From NCBI GenBank assembly GCA_913045415.1, contig CAJWPW010000015.1:1-11962 (forward strand): 11,962 nucleotides of DNA. Direction: 5' to 3'. The notes under the pieces are model-generated. The model saw nothing but the letters and a program-made list of their open reading frames with translations. It made no database searches and was not told the DNA's origin. The translations under genes and the position numbers were made by a program. Within the stretch, counting starts at the first letter, position 1. Every line of letters begins with the position of its first letter. Positions 2 through 11,711 of this stretch are shown piece by piece. The stretch is from an uncultured Fidelibacterota bacterium (GTDB lineage Bacteria; Marinisomatota; Marinisomatia; Marinisomatales; UBA1611).

Positions 2-628
2 AACCATGCCACGCCAATTATTGCGGGAAATGTGAGTTTTTACAATGAATCAAAAGGTGGCGCCATTCCTCCCAGCCCCATTTTGAGTTGTTTGGGCCGA
101 TTCAAAGATGTAAACAAAGCAGTACCGGCTCATTTCCAAAAATTGAATTCTGTTGTGTTAATGATCGGCGAACGAAAAAATGAATTGGGCGGTTCGGTTT
201 ATTATAGTCTGTATGATGAAATGGGTGCCAATATTCCGAAGCCTAATTTAGAAGAAGTAAAAAACCAAATATTCGCCCTAACCGATTGTATTGATGGTGG
301 CTTGGTTTTATCCTGCCATGATATTTCTGACGGTGGTGTTGCATCTGCCCTTGCGGAAATGACTTTTGGGAATGATATTGGTTGTGATATAAATATTGAT
401 AGCAACCTTTTAAATGAAAAATTATTATGGTCCGAAACGGGTGGCTTTATTTTAGAAATATCATTGGAAAATATTGATGGAATAAAAACCATATTTTCAC
501 ATGTTGAATTGGATGTTTATGAAATTGGAAAAACAATCGGCAATTTAATTCAAATAAATAACGTTGTTGGTTTGACTGTGAATAAAGCAAAAGAAGCGTG
601 GACAAATGGATTGCGTGAAAAACTTTAG
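2..628 (+). CDS. purL: Phosphoribosylformylglycinamidine synthase II, small-type PurL (C-terminal part only)
   Basis: This is the 3' end of the ATP-dependent synthetase subunit that turns FGAR into FGAM (step 4) using ammonia from PurQ. The reading frame is open from base 2, so the gene begins outside the window; about 208 residues are visible. The first residues read NHATPIIAGNVSFYNES, matching the conserved 'SGNVSLYNE' region of PurL. Further on are an LGGSVYYSL segment (the 'LGGSEY' motif) and SCHDISDGGVASALAEM, the diagnostic 'HDvSDGGLavALaEM' motif. The frame ends in AWTNGLREKL and TAG, with no glutaminase domain. This is therefore the small-type PurL that needs separate PurQ and PurS, which agrees with purQ downstream. 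The identification is firm; the true 5' end is unknown. Confidence 0.96.
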   Translation, partial: NHATPIIAGNVSFYNESKGGAIPPSPILSCLGRFKDVNKAVPAHFQKLNSVVLMIGERKNELGGSVYYSLYDEMGANIPKPNLEEVKNQIFALTDCIDGGLVLSCHDISDGGVASALAEMTFGNDIGCDINIDSNLLNEKLLWSETGGFILEISLENIDGIKTIFSHVELDVYEIGKTIGNLIQINNVVGLTVNKAKEAWTNGLREKL

Positions 629-706: not shown

Positions 707-1744
707 ATGAGCAATATAGATTACAAATCAGCCGGTGTTGATATTGATGCTGGAAACGAAGCCGTGGATCGCATTAAAGATGGGGTGAAATCAACTTTTA
801 CGTCCAATGTGCTTACAGGGCTCGGGAGTTTTGGTTCGCTCTACGATCTGAAACCTATTCTCGAAAAATATGATCATCCGGTAATGGTTCAAAGTATTGA
901 TGGTGTGGGGACAAAAACCATCATCGCTCGAAAACTGGGGAAATTTGATACTATCGGAATTGATTTATTGAGCGCCGCCGCCAACGATATTTTGGTCATG
1001 GGTGCGCGGCCCCTTACTTTTCTGGACTATATTGCAAACGACAAACTAAAGCCGAAAATTGTAGAAGAAATTGTATCCGGAATGGTAAAGGCGTGCAAAG
1101 AAACGGGGGTCTCTTTGGTCGGTGGTGAAACAGCCGAAATGCCCGACACTTATCTTCCCGGTGAGCACGACCTGGTGGGCATCATCACCGGTGTGGTGGA
1201 AAAAGAAAAAATCATTACCGGGGAAAGCATCAAACCCGGCAATGTCGTGTTGGGGCTGGCTTCCAACGGCCTGCACACCAATGGTTATTCATTTGCGCGG
1301 AAACTCTTTTTCGAAATTGGCGGTTATGATGTGAATGATACGATCCCGAAATTGGAAAAATCGGTAGGCCTTACATTGCTTGAACCCCACATCAATTATA
1401 CTAATCATGTCTTTGCCGTTTTAAATAATGAGATTGACATCAAAGGCGTTGCACATATTACCGGTGGTGGATTGATTGAAAACATACCGCGAATTTTACC
1501 GGACGGGTGCGGCGTGAAAATTCAAAAAGGATCCTGGCCCATTCTCCCTGTTTTTGATGTAATGCAATCTATTGGTGATGTGGATGAAGATGAAATGTTT
1601 CGTTCTTTCAATATGGGTGTCGGGATGGTCTTCGTTGTTGATTCTAACGATGTGGGTTATGTAAAAGGTGCCCTGATAGAGTTGGCGGAAGTTTATAAGA
1701 TTGGTTCCGTTGTCGGTGGAAAGAAACATGTTACCCTTAAATAA
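707..1744 (+). CDS. purM: Phosphoribosylformylglycinamidine cyclo-ligase (AIR synthetase)
   Basis: PurM closes the imidazole ring: FGAM + ATP gives AIR (step 5), in the cytosol. The 345-residue product has the usual family length. The N-terminus DYKSAGVDIDAGNEAVDRIK (residues 5-24) matches the canonical 'YkdAGVDIdaGn..V..IK' opening, which supports the ATG at 707. Other family motifs are GLGSFGSLYDL (38-48), SIDGVGTK (63-70, nucleotide-site loop), NDILVMGARPLTFLDYIA (93-110) and VGGETAEMP (138-146). A glycine-rich TGGGLIENIPR segment lies in the C-terminal half. No clear Shine-Dalgarno precedes the ATG because the upstream gap is occupied by an inverted repeat. PurM is homologous in fold to PurL, which lies directly upstream. 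Nothing suggests damage. Confidence 0.98.
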   Translation: MSNIDYKSAGVDIDAGNEAVDRIKDGVKSTFTSNVLTGLGSFGSLYDLKPILEKYDHPVMVQSIDGVGTKTIIARKLGKFDTIGIDLLSAAANDILVMGARPLTFLDYIANDKLKPKIVEEIVSGMVKACKETGVSLVGGETAEMPDTYLPGEHDLVGIITGVVEKEKIITGESIKPGNVVLGLASNGLHTNGYSFARKLFFEIGGYDVNDTIPKLEKSVGLTLLEPHINYTNHVFAVLNNEIDIKGVAHITGGGLIENIPRILPDGCGVKIQKGSWPILPVFDVMQSIGDVDEDEMFRSFNMGVGMVFVVDSNDVGYVKGALIELAEVYKIGSVVGGKKHVTLK

Positions 1745-2665: not shown

Positions 2666-3931
2666 TTGAAAAAAATTATAAATATTGCCATCATCCAATT
2701 CCCCGGTTCAAATACAGAGCGAGAAACCCTTATGGCCTGCAGGCGTGTAGGATTAAACCCGGTCGAATTTTTATGGAATGAGTCGGCAGAAAAATTGTCT
2801 GATTTTAATGGTTATGTGATTGTGGGCGGTTTTGCTTATGAAGATCGTTCCCGTGCCGGCGTGATTGCGGCGCTCGATCCGATCATGAAACTGATCAAGA
2901 TTGAAGCAGAAAAAGGGAAACCTGTTTTAGGCATCTGCAATGGGGCACAAATCTTGGTGGAAAGCGGGCTCGTTCCTGGGCTGGATGGCCATCGTGTGGG
3001 GGTTGCGCTGACAGACAATAAACGTGTAAAGGGTGGCCATGTTATCGGTGTCGGCTACTATAATACATGGGTGAATTTGAAACTGTCCGCACCTTCATAC
3101 CGCTGTGCCTTTACGCGGCAGTTGAGCACCGATGATATCATCAACATCCCCCTGGCCCATGGCGAAGGACGATTTATTATTCCCGATAAGCTCTTGGGAA
3201 AAATGATTGCCAACGACCAAACTGTATATCGTTATTGTGATGATGATGGAAATGTGGTTGATGAGTTTCCAACGAACCCCAATGGATCTATGCACAACCT
3301 GGCGGCGGTGTGTAATCCCGCTGGGAACGTCATGGCTATGATGCCCCATCCGGAACGGACGGAAAATGGAGATGGAATTTTTTCATCCATGAAAGATTTT
3401 ATCGAAAACGAAAATCCGTTGACCGATCATACCCTGTCCTTTGAGCGTCCCCATTATGAAGTAGTAAACTATAATCCAAATGATGATGATGCCGAATGGA
3501 TTATAGACATGATCATTACAGATAACGAAGCGTCATCTGTTCATAATACGCTGGTTCGCTTAGACCATGATGTTTCCATCACGCGGCAGACCCATTGGGA
3601 AATTTCCGTAGTTGGCGACCGGGAATCCATCCTGAAAGAAATTGATGCTACCGGGGAACTCTATAATTCCAACAAAGAATTCATCAGCAAAACCACATCT
3701 ATGCAAAACACAATATCCTTCCTGGTTCGGCAAAAAGAAGACATGGTTGGACGGGCAAAATTTGAATCCCTGACAGAGCGATTTGAAATCGGCGGAATTA
3801 CCAAAATAAAACGCGGCGTCATATGGAATATCACTGTAAACAGCGGTAACTTGGAAAATGTTTTAGGCAACCTTTTAGATACACACATATTTTTCAACCC
3901 ATTATCTCATGAATGCTATCGAATCAACTGA
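2666..3931 (+). CDS. purQ: FGAM synthase glutaminase subunit PurQ with C-terminal tandem PurS-like extension
   Basis: PurQ hydrolyses glutamine and channels ammonia to PurL (step 4). Residues 1-~250 are a full class I glutaminase: IIQFPGSNTERE (9-20), VGGFAYEDRSRAG (53-65), nucleophile C91 in GICNGAQ, and H228/E230 in MMPHPERTENGD. Usual PurQ length is about 220-260; this protein is 421. Residues ~347-420 look like PurS: FLVRQKEDMVGRAKFESL at the start and FFNPLSHECYRI at the end, comparable to PurS 'YVTLKPGVLDPQGRAVEGAL...LLANPVIEDYEIE'. Residues ~275-341 show the same predicted beta-alpha-beta-beta-alpha-beta pattern, with HWEISVVGD answering IWNITVNSG and ELYNSNKEFISK answering IFFNPLSHECYR. 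I read this as PurQ fused to two PurS units, which small-type PurL would need. The start is TTG with a good AAGGGG site. The PurQ identity is certain; the tandem PurS reading is inference from aligning by eye. Confidence 0.95.
   Translation: MKKIINIAIIQFPGSNTERETLMACRRVGLNPVEFLWNESAEKLSDFNGYVIVGGFAYEDRSRAGVIAALDPIMKLIKIEAEKGKPVLGICNGAQILVESGLVPGLDGHRVGVALTDNKRVKGGHVIGVGYYNTWVNLKLSAPSYRCAFTRQLSTDDIINIPLAHGEGRFIIPDKLLGKMIANDQTVYRYCDDDGNVVDEFPTNPNGSMHNLAAVCNPAGNVMAMMPHPERTENGDGIFSSMKDFIENENPLTDHTLSFERPHYEVVNYNPNDDDAEWIIDMIITDNEASSVHNTLVRLDHDVSITRQTHWEISVVGDRESILKEIDATGELYNSNKEFISKTTSMQNTISFLVRQKEDMVGRAKFESLTERFEIGGITKIKRGVIWNITVNSGNLENVLGNLLDTHIFFNPLSHECYRIN
3488..3925 (+). other. Tandem PurS-like domains at the end of PurQ
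   Basis: This marks the coding part of PurQ residues ~275-420. Unit 1 is about 3488-3688 and unit 2 about 3704-3925. Unit 2 has the PurS features (early GRAKFESL helix, 'ITKIKRG' strand turn, final NPLSHECYRI strand). Unit 1 aligns to unit 2 around a shared Trp (W311 and W387) but has drifted further. PurS normally acts as a homodimer bridging PurL and PurQ, so two units in one chain would form an internal dimer. Confidence 0.6.
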
Positions 3932-4895
3932 ACACTATAAAGACCGCATCAAAGCGGAACTGAATAACACCTTAACCAAAACGTCTTTGGCTCGTGGATC
4001 CAAGCGAACCGGGAAAGTTCGGGACCAATATGATTTCGGCGACAAAGTTGCGCTCATTACTACCGATCGTCAAAGCGCCTTTGACCGCGTTTTAGCATCC
4101 ATTCCATTTAAAGGACAAGTCCTAAATCTCACCAGCGCATGGTGGTTTGACCAGACGAAAGATATTATTCCAAATCAAGTAATTGATGTCCCTGATCCTA
4201 ACGTGACGTTGGCGAAAAAATGTGATGTCTTTCCCATTGAATTTGTGGTTCGTGGATATATTACCGGCAGCACCAGCACGTCACTCTGGACAGTTTATAA
4301 TAAGGATAACCGCACATATTGTGGAAATGATTTACCGGAAGGCTTAGTGAAAAATCAAAAATTAACTGCCAACATGCTCACACCCACCACCAAAGAAGAA
4401 CATCACGATCGACCCATTGCCCCTGATGAGATAGTAAGCGAAGGATGGATGACACAAGAAGATTGGGATTATTGCAGCCAGAAAGCATTAGAACTTTTTG
4501 CGTTCGGACAAAAGAAAGCTGCGGAAAGCGGCATGATATTGGTGGATACCAAATACGAAATGGGCCGGGATTCAAGTGGTGAAATAATGCTTATTGATGA
4601 AATCCACACACCGGACTCAAGCCGTTACTGGATTGCCAAAACCTATGGTGAACGAATGGCAGCCGGACAAGAACCCCAGAATATTGATAAAGAATTTTTA
4701 CGACTTTGGTTTGTGGATAATTGTGATCCCTATAATGATGAAACATTGCCGGAAGCACCGGAAGAATTGGTGGCTGAACTTTCGAGCCGCTATATCTATT
4801 TATATGAAACCATAACGGGCAGGTTGTTTCCTTTTCCTGATTCGGGAAAACCTGTTAATGAACGAATTAATGAAAATTTGAAGGAAGTATTATGA
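3909..4895 (+). CDS. purC: SAICAR synthetase, long (Bacteroidota/yeast-like) form
   Basis: PurC condenses CAIR with aspartate using ATP to give SAICAR. At 328 residues it is of the long form; E. coli-type PurC is about 240. Visible motifs are GKVRDQYDFGDKVALITTDR (35-54), SAFDRVLASIPFKGQVLN (56-73), EFVVRGYITGSTSTSLW (111-127), LVDTKYEMG (211-219) and LIDEIHTPDSSRYW (228-241). The last is the metal/nucleotide and aspartate-site block typical of the family. The ATG at 3909 lies 23 bp inside purQ, and no Shine-Dalgarno is obvious. The first ~20 residues precede the conserved region, so a slightly shorter start is possible. The stop codon overlaps the purE start as ATGA. The neighbour is a class II PurE, the same order as the animal PAICS fusion protein. 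Confidence 0.98.
   Translation: MNAIESTEHYKDRIKAELNNTLTKTSLARGSKRTGKVRDQYDFGDKVALITTDRQSAFDRVLASIPFKGQVLNLTSAWWFDQTKDIIPNQVIDVPDPNVTLAKKCDVFPIEFVVRGYITGSTSTSLWTVYNKDNRTYCGNDLPEGLVKNQKLTANMLTPTTKEEHHDRPIAPDEIVSEGWMTQEDWDYCSQKALELFAFGQKKAAESGMILVDTKYEMGRDSSGEIMLIDEIHTPDSSRYWIAKTYGERMAAGQEPQNIDKEFLRLWFVDNCDPYNDETLPEAPEELVAELSSRYIYLYETITGRLFPFPDSGKPVNERINENLKEVL
4881..4887 (+). promoter_or_regulatory. Ribosome binding site for purE
   Basis: AAGGAAG within the last codons of purC lies 4 nt before the ATG at 4892 (7 nt measured from the GGA core). It fixes the PurE start that overlaps the purC stop as ATGA and suggests translational coupling. Confidence 0.6.
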
Positions 4896-5278
4896 AAACA
4901 GTAATAATTATGGGTTCCAAGTCCGACGAACCCCATGCAAAGAAAATTACAAATAAATTAGATGAATACGGCATTACCTGGGAACAGCATGCAGCATCGG
5001 CACACAAACAGCCGTTGCAAGTTTTAGAAATTTTAACCGCGAATAAAGATGAAAAAGATATTGTGTATATCACTATCGCTGGGCGGTCCAATGCCTTATC
5101 CGGATTTGTGGCCGCCAATTGTGAATTTCCAACCATTGGATGTCCACCCTTTTCAGATAAAACAGATATGCTGGTGAATGTTCATTCCACATTGCAGATG
5201 CCAAGCAATACACCGGTCTTGACAATTCTCGATCCGGGTAATTGTGCTTTAGCGGTTAAAAGAATTTTCGGTGTCTGA
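4892..5278 (+). CDS. purE: Class II PurE: AIR carboxylase using CO2
   Basis: A 128-residue PurE-fold protein, shorter than bacterial class I PurE (about 160). It has the common GSKSD loop (8-12) and SAHK (36-39). In place of the class I 'AGGAAHLPGM' motif it has TIAGRSNALSGFVAAN (61-76) and PTIGCPPFSDK (80-90). These match the class II signature of the animal PAICS carboxylase domain ('AGRSNGLGPVMSGN', 'CPP'). Class II enzymes convert AIR + CO2 directly to CAIR and need neither PurK nor N5-CAIR. Treponema denticola is an established bacterial example. No purK occurs in the window. The protein ends in AVKRIFGV, like the 'QIFG' end of the animal domain. The stop lies 8 bp inside purB. Assignment as class II is strong from motifs. 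Confidence 0.95.
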   Translation: MKTVIIMGSKSDEPHAKKITNKLDEYGITWEQHAASAHKQPLQVLEILTANKDEKDIVYITIAGRSNALSGFVAANCEFPTIGCPPFSDKTDMLVNVHSTLQMPSNTPVLTILDPGNCALAVKRIFGV

Positions 5279-6620
5279 TCATCTGAATGCGGTTTCGCCA
5301 CTGGACGGACGCTATAGCAGTAGCGTAAAGTATCTGTCCGCCTACTTTTCCGAATCAGCGCTCATGCGCTACCGCCTGAAAGTTGAGATTGAATATCTTA
5401 TTGCTCTAGGCAGAGAAAAATCTATTAAAAAGCTTCCGACCTTTTCAAAAGGCGAACAAGCGCGACTTCGGAAAATATATCAAAACTTTAATTCCACCGG
5501 TGCAGAAAAAGTAAAAGAAATTGAAGCCACTACTAACCATGATGTAAAGGCAATTGAGTATTACATTCAAGGGAAAGTAAGGAAAAGTCTTCACCCCTGG
5601 ATTCATTTTGCCTTGACGTCGGAAGATGTGAATAATTTGTCCTATTCGCTCATGTGGCAGGACGGGTTATCTCTGGTTTTTTTACCGGCGCTTCGGTCAG
5701 TAAACAAAGAACTAAAGAAAATGGCTCGGAAATATAAAAACGCATCCATGCTGGCGCTGACCCACGGCCAGCCCGCGACGCCCACAACCTTCGGAAAAGA
5801 ATTGGCCGTCTTCTGCGCCCGGTTGGAGCGACAAATCGACCAGATCAAAACACATAAACTATTGGGGAAATTCGGCGGCGCCACAGGAACATGGTCCGCC
5901 CATATGGCGGTGTATCCAAAAACAAACTGGACTTCCTTCGCATCCAAATTCATTAAATCGCTCGGACTTGAGCCGAATCTGGTCACCACCCAGATCGAAT
6001 CCCACGATTCCGCCGTAGAAAGCTATCACCAAGTAGTTCGTGTTAATTCCATCCTGACCGATCTCTGTCGGGACATGTGGTCTTATATCAGCCGTGGGAT
6101 TTTAGGACAAAAAAAAGTGGCCGGCGAAGTGGGCTCATCTACCATGCCCCATAAAATCAACCCCATCCAATTTGAAAATGCGGAAGGCAATATGGGTCTC
6201 GCCAATGCGCTTCTAAATCATTTTGCCACCAAACTTCCTATTTCACGAATGCAGCGGGATCTCACCGATTCAACCACTTTACGAAACCAGGGTGTGGCTT
6301 TGGGACATTCCTATTTAGCCCTGCAGAATATTTTAAAGGGCTTGAGCCGGATTACTATTAACAAAACCCAAATGTTGAAAGAGCTGGATAACCATTGGGA
6401 AGTATTGACCGAAGCAATTCAGACAATCCTGCGAAAATCCGGAAAAACGAATGCTTACGAACAGCTAAAAAAATTGACCCGCGGAGAATCCATAAATGCA
6501 GGATCCTTGGCAAAATTCATATCTGAATTGAAGATTTCTGATGAACATAAACGAACATTATTAAATCTTACACCAAAATCATATACTGGGCTTTCATCTA
6601 AACTTGTGGATTTAATCTAA
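5271..6620 (+). CDS. purB: Adenylosuccinate lyase, E. coli-type
   Basis: PurB acts twice: it splits SAICAR to AICAR plus fumarate, and adenylosuccinate to AMP plus fumarate. The 449-residue product is close to the 456 of E. coli PurB and is alignable along its length: LNAVSPLDGRY (5-15), EATTNHDVKAIEYY (85-98), HFALTSEDVNNLSYSLM (112-128), LTHGQPATPTTFGKE (163-177, catalytic His165). The fumarase/ASL-superfamily signature GSSTMPHKINPIQFENAEGN (288-307) has the flexible-loop serines 289/290. It begins at GTG 5271, which overlaps the end of purE by 8 bp; this start gives the expected 'LTAVSPVDGRY'-type opening. It ends in TAA sharing one base with the purF ATG (TAATG), so purE, purB and purF are probably translationally coupled. 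Confidence 0.98.
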   Translation: MSDHLNAVSPLDGRYSSSVKYLSAYFSESALMRYRLKVEIEYLIALGREKSIKKLPTFSKGEQARLRKIYQNFNSTGAEKVKEIEATTNHDVKAIEYYIQGKVRKSLHPWIHFALTSEDVNNLSYSLMWQDGLSLVFLPALRSVNKELKKMARKYKNASMLALTHGQPATPTTFGKELAVFCARLERQIDQIKTHKLLGKFGGATGTWSAHMAVYPKTNWTSFASKFIKSLGLEPNLVTTQIESHDSAVESYHQVVRVNSILTDLCRDMWSYISRGILGQKKVAGEVGSSTMPHKINPIQFENAEGNMGLANALLNHFATKLPISRMQRDLTDSTTLRNQGVALGHSYLALQNILKGLSRITINKTQMLKELDNHWEVLTEAIQTILRKSGKTNAYEQLKKLTRGESINAGSLAKFISELKISDEHKRTLLNLTPKSYTGLSSKLVDLI

Positions 6621-8101
6621 TGTGTGGTATTGCCGGTATTTATTCCCATAAATCTGTTGCCACCGAACTCTACGATAGCATCATTCATTTGCAGCATCGC
6701 GGACAGGATGCCGCTGGGATTATGACCTATGATAACCGTATGCATAAAGAAAAGGGGGTGGGGCTCGCAAAAGAAGTTTTCAATGAATCAAACATGGAGC
6801 TTCTTACTGGTAATATCGGAATTTCTCACAATCGGTATCCCACCCACGGCGGGTTTAGTCATGGAGAAGTACAGCCCTTCTGGACGTCTGTCCCTTACGG
6901 CATCGCTCTGGCCCACAACGGGAATCTTACCAATTATCAGAGCCTTGCTGAAGAAATCACAAACAAAGATAGCCGGTATTTAAACACCAATTCCGATTCA
7001 GAAGTATTGCTTCACTATTTTGCAGATTTACTCCACACAAACAATCCGCCTGAAGATAGTGAAGAATTTTTCTATCTCTTATGCAGTGCGGTTACCAAAA
7101 TTTTCAAGCATGTAAAAGGTGCCTATTCCGTCGTAAGTATTGTTATTGGAAAAGGGCTTGTGGTCTTTCGCGATCCCCGAGGAATTCGCCCGCTGGTGAA
7201 AGGTGAGCGATCCAATGGTAATGGTGGCAAGGATTACATTTTTGCGTCCGAGAATACCATGTTTTATTCATTGGGCTTTGAGCCTAAAGGAACCGTGCTC
7301 CCTGGTGAATTGATTTATGTAGATGAAGCTGGAAAAGTATTCAGCAAGCGATTGGTTAAGAAATCATTTAATCCCTGCATTTTTGAATACGTGTATTTCG
7401 CCCGCCCCGATGCCACTTTGAATGATGTAAGCGTCTATCGATCCCGACTTCGGATGGGTCAAAACTTGGCAGACGCGTGGAAAAAGAAATATCCCTATAT
7501 AACCCCCGATATTGTGATTCCTGCCCCAAGCACAGCCAACACCTCGGCCTTGTCTTTTGCCCATGAATTGGGTGTGCGCTATTCTGAAGGTTTGTATAAA
7601 AATACCTTTATCGGCCGAACCTTTATTATGCCGGGACAGGCAGAGCGAAAGAAATCCGTAAAATATAAACTTGTGCCACAAGAAACAGAAATTCGTGATA
7701 AAAAAGTGCTGATTATGGATGACAGTATTGTCCGGGGAAATACCAGTCGGGAGATTGTGCGTATGCTTCGGGATTTTGGCGCCAAAGAGGTGTATTTTTC
7801 CGTTGCCTGTCCGCCCGTAAAATGGCCCTGTTTTTATGGCGTGGATATGCCAACCAAGAGCGAGCTCATTGCTGGAAATATGAGCGAAGATGAAATCCAA
7901 GAATACTTGAATGTGGATGCGCTTTTGTATCAAAAAATTGATGATTTGGTAGAAGCGGTCACCCGGAAAGGAAATCACTATATTGATACTCCTTGCATGG
8001 CATGCTTGGATGGAAATTATGTGGCTAATGATATTGACGATGCAAAGATCGCAGAAATGGAAACGATGCGTGTGAATGACCGGAATGGTAAGCAACCATA
8101 A
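6620..8101 (+). CDS. purF: Amidophosphoribosyltransferase, E. coli-like but with four iron-sulfur-type cysteines
   Basis: PurF commits PRPP to the pathway: PRPP + glutamine gives phosphoribosylamine. The 493-residue chain starts MCGIAG, so Cys2 becomes the N-terminal nucleophile after Met removal, with no propeptide. The glutaminase half has HRGQDAAG (26-33), SHNRYPTHGG (69-78) and LAHNGNLTN (97-105). The transferase half has GRTFIMPGQAERKKSVKYKL (332-351) and the PRPP loop LIMDDSIVRGNTS (364-376). The overall text follows E. coli PurF (NPCIFEYVYFARPD at 251-264 is identical to my recollection of E. coli). Yet C253, C404 (WPCFYGVD) and C459/C462 (TPCMACLDGNY) fall where the B. subtilis enzyme binds a [4Fe-4S] cluster; E. 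coli lacks most of these. A cluster-bearing, possibly oxygen-sensitive enzyme is inferred. The start overlaps purB by one base. Confidence 0.98.
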   Translation: MCGIAGIYSHKSVATELYDSIIHLQHRGQDAAGIMTYDNRMHKEKGVGLAKEVFNESNMELLTGNIGISHNRYPTHGGFSHGEVQPFWTSVPYGIALAHNGNLTNYQSLAEEITNKDSRYLNTNSDSEVLLHYFADLLHTNNPPEDSEEFFYLLCSAVTKIFKHVKGAYSVVSIVIGKGLVVFRDPRGIRPLVKGERSNGNGGKDYIFASENTMFYSLGFEPKGTVLPGELIYVDEAGKVFSKRLVKKSFNPCIFEYVYFARPDATLNDVSVYRSRLRMGQNLADAWKKKYPYITPDIVIPAPSTANTSALSFAHELGVRYSEGLYKNTFIGRTFIMPGQAERKKSVKYKLVPQETEIRDKKVLIMDDSIVRGNTSREIVRMLRDFGAKEVYFSVACPPVKWPCFYGVDMPTKSELIAGNMSEDEIQEYLNVDALLYQKIDDLVEAVTRKGNHYIDTPCMACLDGNYVANDIDDAKIAEMETMRVNDRNGKQP

Positions 8102-8104
8102 TAA

Positions 8105-8246
8105 TTGAAGAAAAAGAGTAAAGAAAAAAAATAAATCCATCGGTATGGGGCTTGCCCTTGGTGCTTCTTTTGGTGTTGCGATTGGGCCATCTGTTGGTAT
8201 GACAATTGCCATGGCAATTAATAATATAAATAAAAATGATAATTAA
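8105..8246 (+). pseudogene. Tiny Lys-rich/glycine-zipper ORF, apparently frameshifted in an A8 run
   Basis: The intact piece is ATG 8145 to TAA 8246: 33 residues, MGLALGASFGVAIGPSVGMT then IAMAINNINKNDN. The small-residue GxxxG-like pattern suggests one hydrophobic helix. The frame is open back to 8109 without a start codon, reading a Lys-rich stretch ending KKKNKSIG. A TTG at 8105, just after the purF stop, reads LKKKSKEKK and hits TAA at 8132. Deleting one A from the eight-A run at 8124-8131 joins the two into a 46-residue protein with a basic N-terminus followed by the glycine-zipper segment. So this is a frameshifted remnant, a sequencing indel, or a slippage-dependent gene. No good Shine-Dalgarno is seen and I know no named family to assign. 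Confidence 0.4.
8204..8219. repeat. 16-bp perfect palindrome AATTGCCATGGCAATT
   Basis: AATTGCCATGGCAATT is its own reverse complement over all 16 bases. It lies 45 bp before the purD GTG and inside the tiny ORF, where it encodes Ile-Ala-Met-Ala-Ile. It could be an operator upstream of purD, or a by-product of the alternating Ile/Ala codons. It does not resemble the E. coli PurR operator. Confidence 0.45.
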
Positions 8247-8260
8247 TTTTATATTAAAAC

Positions 8261-8280
8261 CTTTGTGAGCTTTGTGGCTC
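8261..8280 (+). repeat. Repeat arm CTTTGTGAGCTTTGTGGCTC overlapping the purD start
   Basis: CTTTGTGAGCTTT (8261-8273) is an exact 13-base copy of 672-684 in the purL-purM repeat, and the arm continues GTGGCTC. It supplies both candidate GTG start codons of purD (8265 and 8274). A possible degenerate left arm is the GAAGA..AAGAGT..AAAGAAA stretch at 8107-8127, resembling 635-655. Confidence 0.55.
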
Positions 8281-9587
8281 AAAAAATATTAGTCATCGGT
8301 TCCGGCGCACGGGAACACGCTATCGTTCGCGCATTGGATCGCTCGCCCCAAGAAAAAGAAATTTATTCTCTTGCTTCAAATATGAATCCGGGCATTGCCG
8401 AGCTCTGCGACGAAATACTAATCGGGAATTTCAACGACCCAGATTTTGTTGTGAGATATGCAAAAGAAACGGGAACCATTTTAGCTATAATCGGACCAGA
8501 AAACCCCTTAGCAAACGGCGTGGCGGATGCACTTTGGGAAGCAGGTGTAAAAGTAGTGGGGCCCACAAAAAATTTAGCTCAATTGGAAACATCAAAAGCA
8601 TTCACCCGAAATTTATTGAAAGAATACAATATTCCCGGCGGTCCTAAATATCAGACATTTAATTCCATGGATGGTGTGGCCGATTTCTTAAATGAGCTTG
8701 GCGAAAACTATGTGGTAAAGTATGACGGACTCGCCGGCGGAAAAGGTGTAAAGGTGGCGGGTGAACATTTGCATTTTCATGATGAAGCATTGGCTTATTG
8801 CCAAGAATTGGTGAATAATAATGGCGAATTTGTCATTGAAGAAAAATTCACTGGAGAAGAATTTTCGCTCATGAGTTTTTGCGACGGCGAGACCTTAAAG
8901 CACATGCCTGCCGTTCAAGACCACAAACGAGCTTACGAAGGCGATTCCGGGCCAAATACCGGTGGGATGGGGACTTACTCTGACGCTAATCATTCACTCC
9001 CCTTTCTATCGGTCGATGAAATTTCCCAAGCACATGATATAAATATTAAAACCGCGAATGCGGTAAAGGATAAATTAGGAGAAGGATACAAAGGCATCCT
9101 TTACGGTGGATTTATGGCCACTGCCAATGGTGTGAAGCTCATCGAATACAATGCGCGCTTTGGAGATCCAGAAGCCATGAATGTTCTCTCGCTTTTGGAG
9201 TCTGACTTTATTGAGATTTGCAATGGAATTACTGGTGGAACATTAGATAAAATTGATGTGCAATTTTCGAAGAAAGCCACCGTTTGTAAATATGCTGTTC
9301 CGGAAGGATATCCGAACAACCCTGTAAAGGGTAAGCCGATTGACGTTTCGGGTAATTCTAATCCAGATGGATTGTTTTATGCGTCCGTTGATTTCAAAGG
9401 GGCAAGTTTGGTCGAAGCTGGAAGTCGAACTGTCGCAGTTCTGGGAATCGCAGATACAATTATGGCCGCGGAAAAAATTGCGGAAAAAGACGTGTCTGCT
9501 ATTGCTGGTCCGCTCTTTCATCGGACTGATATTGGGACCGATGAAGTCATTCAGAAGCGTATTGATCATATGAAATCCTTACGATGA
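8265..9587 (+). CDS. purD: Phosphoribosylamine-glycine ligase (GAR synthetase)
   Basis: PurD joins glycine to phosphoribosylamine with ATP to form GAR (step 2). The 440 residues compare with about 430 in E. coli. Motifs are KILVIGSGAREHAIVRAL (7-24, the N-domain phosphate loop), IIGPENPLANG (75-85), the ATP-grasp segment VVKYDGLAGGKGVKVA (150-165), SGPNTGGMGTYS (228-239) and EYNARFGDPEAM (294-305, metal ligands). Two GTG codons could start it: 8265 (MSFVAQKILV) or 8274 (MAQKILV). Typical PurD begins 'MKILVIG', so 8274 gives the more usual N-terminus. Both codons lie in an arm of an intergenic repeat and no Shine-Dalgarno is evident. The stop overlaps the purN start as ATGA. Confidence 0.97.
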   Translation: MSFVAQKILVIGSGAREHAIVRALDRSPQEKEIYSLASNMNPGIAELCDEILIGNFNDPDFVVRYAKETGTILAIIGPENPLANGVADALWEAGVKVVGPTKNLAQLETSKAFTRNLLKEYNIPGGPKYQTFNSMDGVADFLNELGENYVVKYDGLAGGKGVKVAGEHLHFHDEALAYCQELVNNNGEFVIEEKFTGEEFSLMSFCDGETLKHMPAVQDHKRAYEGDSGPNTGGMGTYSDANHSLPFLSVDEISQAHDINIKTANAVKDKLGEGYKGILYGGFMATANGVKLIEYNARFGDPEAMNVLSLLESDFIEICNGITGGTLDKIDVQFSKKATVCKYAVPEGYPNNPVKGKPIDVSGNSNPDGLFYASVDFKGASLVEAGSRTVAVLGIADTIMAAEKIAEKDVSAIAGPLFHRTDIGTDEVIQKRIDHMKSLR

Positions 9588-10168
9588 TTAAGCTCGGTGT
9601 TATCGGCTCCACAAAAGGGACGGACCTGCGTGCCATATTTGATGCGATTAAAACCGGTGAATTGAATGCTCAAGCTTGTGTTGTGATGTCTAATCGGAAG
9701 AGTGCTTATATATTAGAACGAGCCAAAAATCATAATGTGCCGGCGGTGTTTATTTCTCATAAAGGAAAATCCAGAGAAGAGTTTGATGCTGAAATTACGT
9801 CCCTTTTAAAAGAGCATAATGTTGATTTGGTTTTACTTATTGGATTCATGCGAATTTTATCCGCAGAATTTTGCCGAGAATGGCGAGACAGACTCTTGAA
9901 TGTGCATCCTTCGCTGTTGCCAAAATATGCTGGCGGGATGGATACCAACGTTCATAAAGACGTGCTAAATAATGGTGAAACAGAAACGGGTTGTACGATT
10001 CATTTTGTCACAGATGAGGTGGATGGAGGACCAATCCTGATTCAGAAAAAATGTAATGTAGAACCAGATGAAACTGTAGAAACATTAAAAACAAAAGTGC
10101 AAAAATTAGAAGGCGAAGCTTTTATTGAAGCGATACAATTAATACAAAATAATTCTCATGTTAAATAG
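9584..10168 (+). CDS. purN: GAR transformylase (10-formyl-THF dependent)
   Basis: PurN formylates GAR to FGAR using 10-formyltetrahydrofolate (step 3). The 194 residues are of normal length. The start MIKLGVIGSTKGTDLRAI (1-18) is the 'vLiSGnGsNLqai' opening. GFMRILSAEF (87-96) and LNVHPSLLPKYAGG (105-118) follow, with catalytic N106 and H108, and D144 lies in FVTDEVDGGPIL (141-152). These three numbers coincide with the E. coli catalytic residues. The substrate loop reads AGGMDTNVHKDVLNNGETET rather than the E. coli 'GLHTHRQALENGDEEHG', a variant not E. coli-like but still ending in the expected GCTIHFV. The ATG overlaps the purD stop, and the gene runs 11 bp into purH. No formate-dependent purT is needed or seen. 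Confidence 0.98.
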   Translation: MIKLGVIGSTKGTDLRAIFDAIKTGELNAQACVVMSNRKSAYILERAKNHNVPAVFISHKGKSREEFDAEITSLLKEHNVDLVLLIGFMRILSAEFCREWRDRLLNVHPSLLPKYAGGMDTNVHKDVLNNGETETGCTIHFVTDEVDGGPILIQKKCNVEPDETVETLKTKVQKLEGEAFIEAIQLIQNNSHVK

Positions 10169-11711
10169 TCCTACTTTAAATCAAAACCCAATCAAAATTA
10201 ATCGGGCACTCGTTTCAGTCTTCGATAAGACCGGTGTTGTGGAGCTGGCTCAATCACTCAAGAATCTCGGTGTAGAAATTTTATCAACCGGTGGCACAGC
10301 CAAGGTGTTGCGTGATGCCAATATTTCTGTCACGGATGTTAGTGACTACACAAAATTTCCGGAAATTATGGATGGCCGTTTAAAAACTATTAATCCGCTT
10401 ATTGAGGGTGGAATTCTTGGTCTTCGGGACAAACACAGCGCTGATGCCAAAGAAAAAAATATTCAATGGATTGACCTTGTGGTGTGCAACCTTTACCCCT
10501 TTTCAGAAACAATTTCCCGGAAAGATTGCGACTTGGCGTTGGCTTTAGAAAATGTGGATATCGGCGGTCCCACCATGATCCGATCCGCTGCAAAAAATGT
10601 TGGATGGGTTTGTGTGGCGGTAAATCCGGCTGATTATTCCATGATCAGCGATGAATTGCAATCGGGTGAAATTTCTTTCAAGACTCGACAGTTATTTTCC
10701 TCTAAAGCTTTTGGGCACACAGCACAATACGATACAATTATACATAATTATTTAAAAGAAGAAGAATTATCAGCTGATCTGTCGTTAACATATATAAAAC
10801 ATTCTGACATGCGATATGGCGAAAACCCTCACCAATCAGCTGCTGCTTATAAAATACCCGGATATAAAGATAATAATATTCTAAATGCTAAAATTTATCA
10901 GGGTAAAAAACTATCATATAATAACATAATGGATGCAGATGGCGCTCTCGCTTGCATTAGAGAGTTTGATGATCCTGCGAGTGTGATTGTTAAGCATTCT
11001 AATCCTTGCGGTGTTGCCGTTGGTAATAATTTACTAGAGGTATATAATAGAGCATTTAATGCGGATTCTTTGTCTGCCTTTGGAGGAATTGTTGCTCTTA
11101 ATCGTACCTGTACAGCAGAGGTTGCAATTGCTATTACATCTATTTTTGTTGAAATAGTTTTAGCGCCTGATTTTGAAAAAGAAGCCTTGAGAGTTTTTAC
11201 GAAAAGGAAAAACCTTAGGGTTTTAGAAATTGGTGAAATTATAAAACGAGAACCTAAGCTTGAATTAAGAAATATAGACGGCGGCTTACTTATACAAAAT
11301 GTTGATGTAAAAATATTAAAAAAAGAAGATTTACAAATTGTCACAAAGATTCAACCATCTTCTCAAAATATAGAGGATGCGCTCTTTACTTGGAAAGTTT
11401 TGAGACATGCAAAGTCTAATGGTATTTTAATCTCAAAAAACAAAACCACGATTGGTTTGGGTGCAGGACAAGTTAGTCGAGTGGATGCTGTTCATATGGC
11501 ATTAAGAAAGGGGGCAGAAAAAGTAAAAGGTGGTGTCTTGGCATCAGACGCTTTCTTTCCCTTCAGAGATAGTATTGATGCAATAAAAGATTCTGGTATA
11601 AGTGCTGTTATGCAGCCCGGGGGATCAATTCGGGATCAAGAAGTAATCGATGCTTGCAATGAGTATGGAATTTCTATGATATTCACTGGAACTAGATGTT
11701 TTAAACATTAA
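10158..11711 (+). CDS. purH: Bifunctional AICAR transformylase / IMP cyclohydrolase
   Basis: PurH performs the last two steps, AICAR to FAICAR to IMP. The 517 residues compare with 529 in E. coli. The N-terminal cyclohydrolase (MGS-like) domain is residues ~14-195: ALVSVFDKTGVVELA (17-31), LSTGGTAKVL (42-51), DYTKFPEIMDGRLKT (63-77), VDIGGPTMIRSAAKN (133-147). The transformylase domain follows: DMRYGENPHQSAAAY (217-231), VIVKHSNPCGVAVGN (276-290) with catalytic K279/H280, DSLSAFGGIVALN (303-315), GAGQVSRVDAVHMA (435-448), LASDAFFPFRDSID (461-474) and the terminal FTGTRCFKH. Odd points: the usual 'KTLHPKVHGG' reads KTINPLIEGG (76-85). GC drops from 43.7% (10201-10740) to 35.2% (10741-11700) close to the domain boundary. 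The start overlaps purN by 11 bp. It is the last pur gene in the window. Confidence 0.98.
   Translation: MLNSPTLNQNPIKINRALVSVFDKTGVVELAQSLKNLGVEILSTGGTAKVLRDANISVTDVSDYTKFPEIMDGRLKTINPLIEGGILGLRDKHSADAKEKNIQWIDLVVCNLYPFSETISRKDCDLALALENVDIGGPTMIRSAAKNVGWVCVAVNPADYSMISDELQSGEISFKTRQLFSSKAFGHTAQYDTIIHNYLKEEELSADLSLTYIKHSDMRYGENPHQSAAAYKIPGYKDNNILNAKIYQGKKLSYNNIMDADGALACIREFDDPASVIVKHSNPCGVAVGNNLLEVYNRAFNADSLSAFGGIVALNRTCTAEVAIAITSIFVEIVLAPDFEKEALRVFTKRKNLRVLEIGEIIKREPKLELRNIDGGLLIQNVDVKILKKEDLQIVTKIQPSSQNIEDALFTWKVLRHAKSNGILISKNKTTIGLGAGQVSRVDAVHMALRKGAEKVKGGVLASDAFFPFRDSIDAIKDSGISAVMQPGGSIRDQEVIDACNEYGISMIFTGTRCFKH

Follow-up and report, generated by a model that had tools for sequence, protein, structure and literature searches.

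A PurQ glutaminase that very probably carries its own single-chain PurS pair in a bacterial purine operon

The 11,962-nucleotide window analysed here (contig CAJWPW010000015.1 of an uncultured Fidelibacterota bacterium) carries a purine operon in which the product of purQ runs on well beyond its glutaminase domain. PurQ frees ammonia from glutamine, PurL with ATP turns formylglycinamide ribonucleotide (FGAR) into formylglycinamidine ribonucleotide (FGAM), and PurS is required for the complex. The purQ gene (2666..3931, + strand) is one unbroken frame of 421 amino acids (aa) with TTG as its first start, and its product matches the PurQ model TIGR01737 above cut-off over residues 5–233 (213.7 bits, cut-off 177.8). 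Residues 1–233 (2666..3364, +) form the class I GATase domain (GATase_5 at 6–233), in which Cys91 (2936..2938, +) and His228-Pro-Glu230 (3347..3355, +) contain the presumed catalytic triad of the family, C91, H228 and E230, with C91 as the nucleophile; all three are invariant in 38 aligned rows. A C-terminal helix and a variable linker follow (residues 234–272; 3365..3481, +), modelled as a helix at 233–247 and a stretch up to 274 that largely lacks secondary structure, and lead to PurS-like lobe 1 (residues 273–342; 3482..3691, +) and PurS-like lobe 2 (residues 347–421; 3704..3928, +). The first-pass annotation had noticed this tail and put it at about 165 residues; counted from residue 233 its length is 188 aa, with ∼40 in the helix and linker and ∼149 in the double domain. 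The presumed partner, a small-type purL, is present as its C-terminal part (2..628, +) with the N-terminus beyond the window, and reaches position 722 of 723 in NF002290 and 717 of 718 in TIGR01736, both below cut-off as a partial match. The gene very probably encodes a PurQ glutaminase with a covalent single-chain PurS ‘dimer’ that does the work of PurS. The computed basis for this is 2-fold: the extension consists of two β-α-β-α-β lobes that are related by sequence to each other and to PurS and together have the fold of the PurS-dimer-like domain of large-type PurL, and a purS is seldom detected in the genomes that encode it, whose PurL is of the small type.

AlphaFold2 (AF2) models yield the β-α-β-α-β arrangement in both lobes, in agreement with the PurS/ferredoxin-like fold anticipated in the first-pass annotation. 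Lobe 1 is composed of a strand (275–282), a helix (287–298), a strand (303–315), a helix (319–329) and a strand (338–341), and lobe 2 repeats this order at 349–356, 360–372, 378–391, 396–404 and 415–419; the assignment of lobe 1 is backed by hhalign to PurS, and that of lobe 2 by VIA-align to solved PurS and by hhalign to lobe 1, PurS and lobe 1 of mdPurL. The PurS fold of the extension was found by fold comparison where sequence searches of the PDB failed, the Foldseek results with the full-length model being dominated by the glutaminase domain. The N-terminal domain of large-type PurL (e.g. 1t3t, 9nb3) likewise has two PurS-like lobes in one chain, and 136–142 residues superpose at 2.5–3.1 Å.

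At the sequence level, the two halves of the extension were compared as profiles built from 35 extensions and from a broader set with Patescibacteria added; the PurS profile comprised free PurS frames of the Marinimicrobia phylum and the PurS of L035/L077, and ten Patescibacteria rows with a shortened second lobe were left out of the broader C-half profile. The N-half against the C-half gave an hhalign score of 27.9 in the narrower set (0/300 column shuffles as high) and 36.2 in the broader one (0/100), so that the similarity of the halves suspected in the first-pass annotation is above chance in both alignments. For the N-half against free PurS the scores were 34.8 (0/300) and 46.2 (probability 96; 0/100). 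The residues that had been singled out earlier are present and conserved, with H310, W311 and E312 nearly invariant and W387, N411 and P412 invariant over the 38 rows. Homologous extensions score above the PF02700 cut-off (22.2 bits) in L033, P0121, P0122 and L128, in two stretches in L033, P0121 and L128, and there is no PF02700 match in the extensions of L123, L124 and L130. Pairwise ratios of nonsynonymous to synonymous substitution (dN/dS) of 0.08–0.21, obtained for 6 of 8 pairs in lobe 1 and all 8 in lobe 2 and rough as dS exceeds 1 in many pairs, indicate purifying selection on the extension. Ten Patescibacteria PurQs (L129–L135, L137–L139) have a shortened lobe 2, with a gap of ∼12 columns between the first helix and the second strand, and retain the NPH motif near the end.

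The relation between the extension and free purS was followed in the phylum of G001 (a Marinimicrobia metagenome-assembled genome (MAG), L018), here called the Marinimicrobia phylum, with 245 genomes. PF02700 is found above cut-off in 93 of these, by our own count in frames of 42–198 aa in 86 and of 633–1006 aa in 7; five of the seven long frames were fetched and are PurL proteins with PurS-like lobes in front. PurQ is matched in 191 genomes. By score (E < 1e-60), 92 of these belong to the extended type, and 88, again by our count, reach the extension, some with the PurQ in pieces or at contig ends. The four left out are G092, G103 and G138, where the listed match ends at the contig end, and G095, which was considered as an extended-type PurQ lacking the extension and set aside, as the sequence past residue 231–233 of the match is unrelated to the PurQ match and the contig is probably chimeric. 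A PurS match accompanies the extension in 2 of the 88. In the three free-PurS genomes that were read (L115, L116, L117) purS lies directly ahead of a short purQ.

In the phylum of G013 (286 genomes), a Peregrinibacteria MAG (L033) and so a member of the Patescibacteria, PurQ is found in 64 genomes, and our count of the listing divides these into 17 with an extended PurQ, 30 with a short one and 17 whose frame measures 1250–1386 aa. The extension profile matches all 17 extended PurQs; its further matches in G344 and G529 are in frames without PurQ similarity and were not counted. At E ≤ 0.001, PurS is matched in eight Patescibacteria genomes, none of them among the 17. A laxer limit yields weak, sub-cut-off PurS matches in 7 of the 17 and in G014, situated inside the PurQ frame itself in G013, G369, G403, G446 and G425 and elsewhere in G252, G340 and G014. 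Of 34 extension genomes, 32 have a small PurL above cut-off; in G252 it is in fragments and in G014 none was found. For 30 of the 32, no more than 111 aa (median 43) of the PurL frame fall outside the model match, leaving no mdPurL-type extension there. The earlier proposal that PurS was duplicated and fused to PurQ is supported. One Patescibacteria genome (G470; L123, 97–2766) has an 889-aa frame that joins PurQ, the PurS-like pair, PurC and PurE, following the operon order, with Pfam matches to GATase_5, SAICAR_synt and AIRC and a match to the extension profile.

Several observations weigh against this reading. Residues 254–421 of the window protein, searched as one piece, have no Pfam or NCBIfam match at E ≤ 10 and hence none to PF02700, and the first half alone gives weak, unrelated matches (E of 0.21 and 0.049); no PurS chain in the PDB was retrieved by sequence, either with phmmer and a relative or with the extension family profile. 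The C-half compares weakly with free PurS in the 35-extension set (14.9; 28/300 shuffles as high), although the broader set gives 23.6 (probability 30; 0/100). Genome completeness is unreported for the genomes in the purS absence counts. G010 and G147 are the only genomes with both an extension and a PurS match (Fisher p 9e-19 for the overlap, a description only since the genomes are related). The PurS contig of G010 (L077, G010:C10) is binned in a Marinimicrobia genome and is probably archaeal contamination; it encodes a PurP-like protein (NF009780 at 315.5 bits, cut-off 556; DUF1246 and DUF1297 above cut-off) together with a TatC matched by the general model and, at a score under cut-off, by the archaeal one. 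The PurS gene of G147 (L108 847–1086, G147:C140) shares its contig with a phosphate-selective porin; it may be of phage origin, with one match (41%) in a faecal phage record and a neighbouring protein that falls in a PHROG of unknown function. In the Patescibacteria, the weak PurS match of G340 (12.6 bits) is in a separate 88-aa frame; a longer frame of that strand overlaps it, and the match appears to be due to chance.

Among known systems, the extension is similar in fold and profile to PurS (PF02700/TIGR00302), which as a homodimer makes up the third subunit of PurLQS (e.g. 3d54). PurS is a free-standing protein of ∼80–90 aa. The extension, by contrast, is duplicated and fused within a 421-aa frame, has diverged so far that the copy in the window falls short of the Pfam cut-off, and has lost the symmetry of a homodimer in the complex; that free purS is absent suggests the same role. 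Relative to PurQ (TIGR01737), the glutaminase domain is complete with its presumed triad but ∼188 residues are added, the PurQs adjoining free purS in the Marinimicrobia phylum being frames of ∼220–250 aa. The lobes of large-type PurL lie at the N-terminus of the PurL chain with the glutaminase in the same chain, in contrast to the C-terminal position on a separate PurQ here, where purL and purQ are separate genes. Archaeal mdPurL, as described in PMC3261824, also has a covalent PurS-like part in place of purS, although at the N-terminus of PurL. Comparable frames, in which PurL is preceded by two PurS-like lobes, occur in the Marinimicrobia phylum (L071–L076, L121); they measure 998–1007 aa, or 752 aa in L072, where the frame lies at a contig end, and L071, L073, L076 and L121 have a separate purQ nearby. 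In hhalign, lobe 1 scores 30.2 with mdPurL lobe 2 and 14.5 with mdPurL lobe 1, lobe 2 scores 35.8 with mdPurL lobe 1 and 19.1 with mdPurL lobe 2, and joining the profiles gives 58.1 for the swapped order against 35.7 for the direct one, with the swapped sum higher in 40 of 40 row bootstraps. The lobe order thus appears to be reversed relative to the bacterial mdPurL-type proteins, tentatively so as the comparison uses 13 such sequences and 12 large-PurL N-termini (L200 and L212 left out) have no profile similarity to the extension in either order; a pseudo-symmetric fold could fit either.

Extended PurQs are found in some uncultured marine bacteria and in some bacteria with very small genomes. 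A tree of 66 PurQ domains (built by a quick method without bootstrap, arbitrary root) places all 32 extended PurQs together in a single clade with a Shimodaira–Hasegawa-like approximate likelihood ratio test (SH-aLRT) value of 99. A further branch, also at 99, sets this clade and the short PurQs that adjoin free purS apart from the PurQs of the mdPurL type and the short ones of Patescibacteria. A single origin of the fusion, with passage between Marinimicrobia and Patescibacteria, is probable. Isolated extended PurQs, one from a MAG with a Gammaproteobacteria label (L034) and one from a MAG with a Flavobacteriaceae label (L029), may reflect transfer or mis-binning; in the phylum of L034 its own genome is the one of 249 with a strong match.

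Of the other explanations, the most substantial is that the N-terminal domain of a large-type PurL or mdPurL was displaced onto PurQ, with no fresh duplication of PurS. The common fold with the large-PurL N-terminus, the affinity of lobe 2 for mdPurL lobe 1 (35.8) and the presence of mdPurL in the Marinimicrobia phylum itself speak for such a move; we nevertheless regard it as unlikely, given that the large-PurL N-termini are without profile signal, that lobe 1 is closer to free PurS than to mdPurL lobe 2 (46.2 versus 30.2), that the lobe order appears reversed versus mdPurL and that the SH-aLRT 99 branch, in an unrooted tree, places the extended PurQs with those beside free purS.

A divergent, separate PurS in the extension genomes would make the extension redundant, and PurS is small and easily overlooked, as noted in PMC3261824, with G010 and G147 as instances of a match. 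The same PF02700 search, however, detects the 86 free-PurS genomes of the Marinimicrobia phylum and 12 of 14 controls, the G010 copy stands beside a PurP-like gene typical of archaea, and the G147 copy is on a contig with no other match to the purine-gene reference set, which makes such redundancy very improbable. Equally far-fetched, in our view, is a purely regulatory role of the extension as a generic domain of ferredoxin-like or ACT-like type, for instance an allosteric purine sensor, without any PurS work.

In the favoured arrangement of a PurS pair fused to PurQ, the double lobe would pack between PurQ and PurL in place of two PurS protomers, glutamine-derived ammonia would travel from the Cys91 site of PurQ to the FGAR site of PurL, and the active enzyme would be a two-chain complex of PurL and PurQ-PurS-PurS, as opposed to PurL, PurQ and two PurS. 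Anchoring the pair on PurQ would be structurally sensible, since the N-terminal domain of Salmonella PurL has a larger contact with the glutaminase (1919 Å2) than with the synthetase domain (1033 Å2), according to PMC3815217. More tentatively, PurQ-PurS-PurS may represent a further FGAM synthetase architecture of single origin in two phyla, with the single-chain pair on the glutaminase side and its lobes reversed versus mdPurL, in which covalent asymmetry let the lobes specialise (one Patescibacteria group having shortened lobe 2 and kept its end motif) and lobe 2 is mostly structural.

No description of this enzyme with a PurQ carrying two fused PurS copies was found. Searches of titles and abstracts gave nothing about a fusion of PurQ and PurS in the open PMC library, whose coverage mostly excludes subscription papers and preprints, and the consulted portions of PMC3261824, PMC3815217 and PMC10927867 hold no mention of one; mdPurL is already described in that of PMC3261824, and the PurQ and PurS domain combination is visible in the precomputed Pfam matches of two proteins. 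The listed relatives bear plain PurQ or FGAM synthase names in the databases, and therefore a genome with the fusion can be scored as lacking purS. With a natural single-chain pair on PurQ, one can test if a complex needs no more than two protomers and if the main task of PurS is to clamp the glutaminase in place. No clear case of a free-standing tandem PurS was seen among ten proteins examined of 198. Nine look like gene fragments: seven start inside the glutaminase domain (five of these at the MPHPER motif), an eighth starts in the helix that follows this domain and a ninth within lobe 1; the other, P0181 (162 aa), starts in the linker and has sub-threshold Pfam matches only.

The operon in the window runs purL (C-terminal part), purM, a JmjC/cupin-like gene, purQ, purC, purE, purB, purF, purD, purN and purH. 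On the + strand, purM (707..1744) is recognized by its AIRS domains, purC (3909..4895; SAICAR_synt) overlaps the end of purQ, and purE to purH (4892..11711) are assigned by Pfam. A protein from a Candidatus Marinimicrobia by name (P0002) is 99% identical to the window protein across the extension. The JmjC/cupin-like gene between purM and purQ (1778–2647; Pfam JmjC_2, Cupin_8) had no tblastn match in the loci searched. Relatives have different genes between purM and purQ, which on visual inspection resemble hydrolases in L005 and L004 and a thioesterase in L031, and the gap is perhaps a variable cargo site within the operon.
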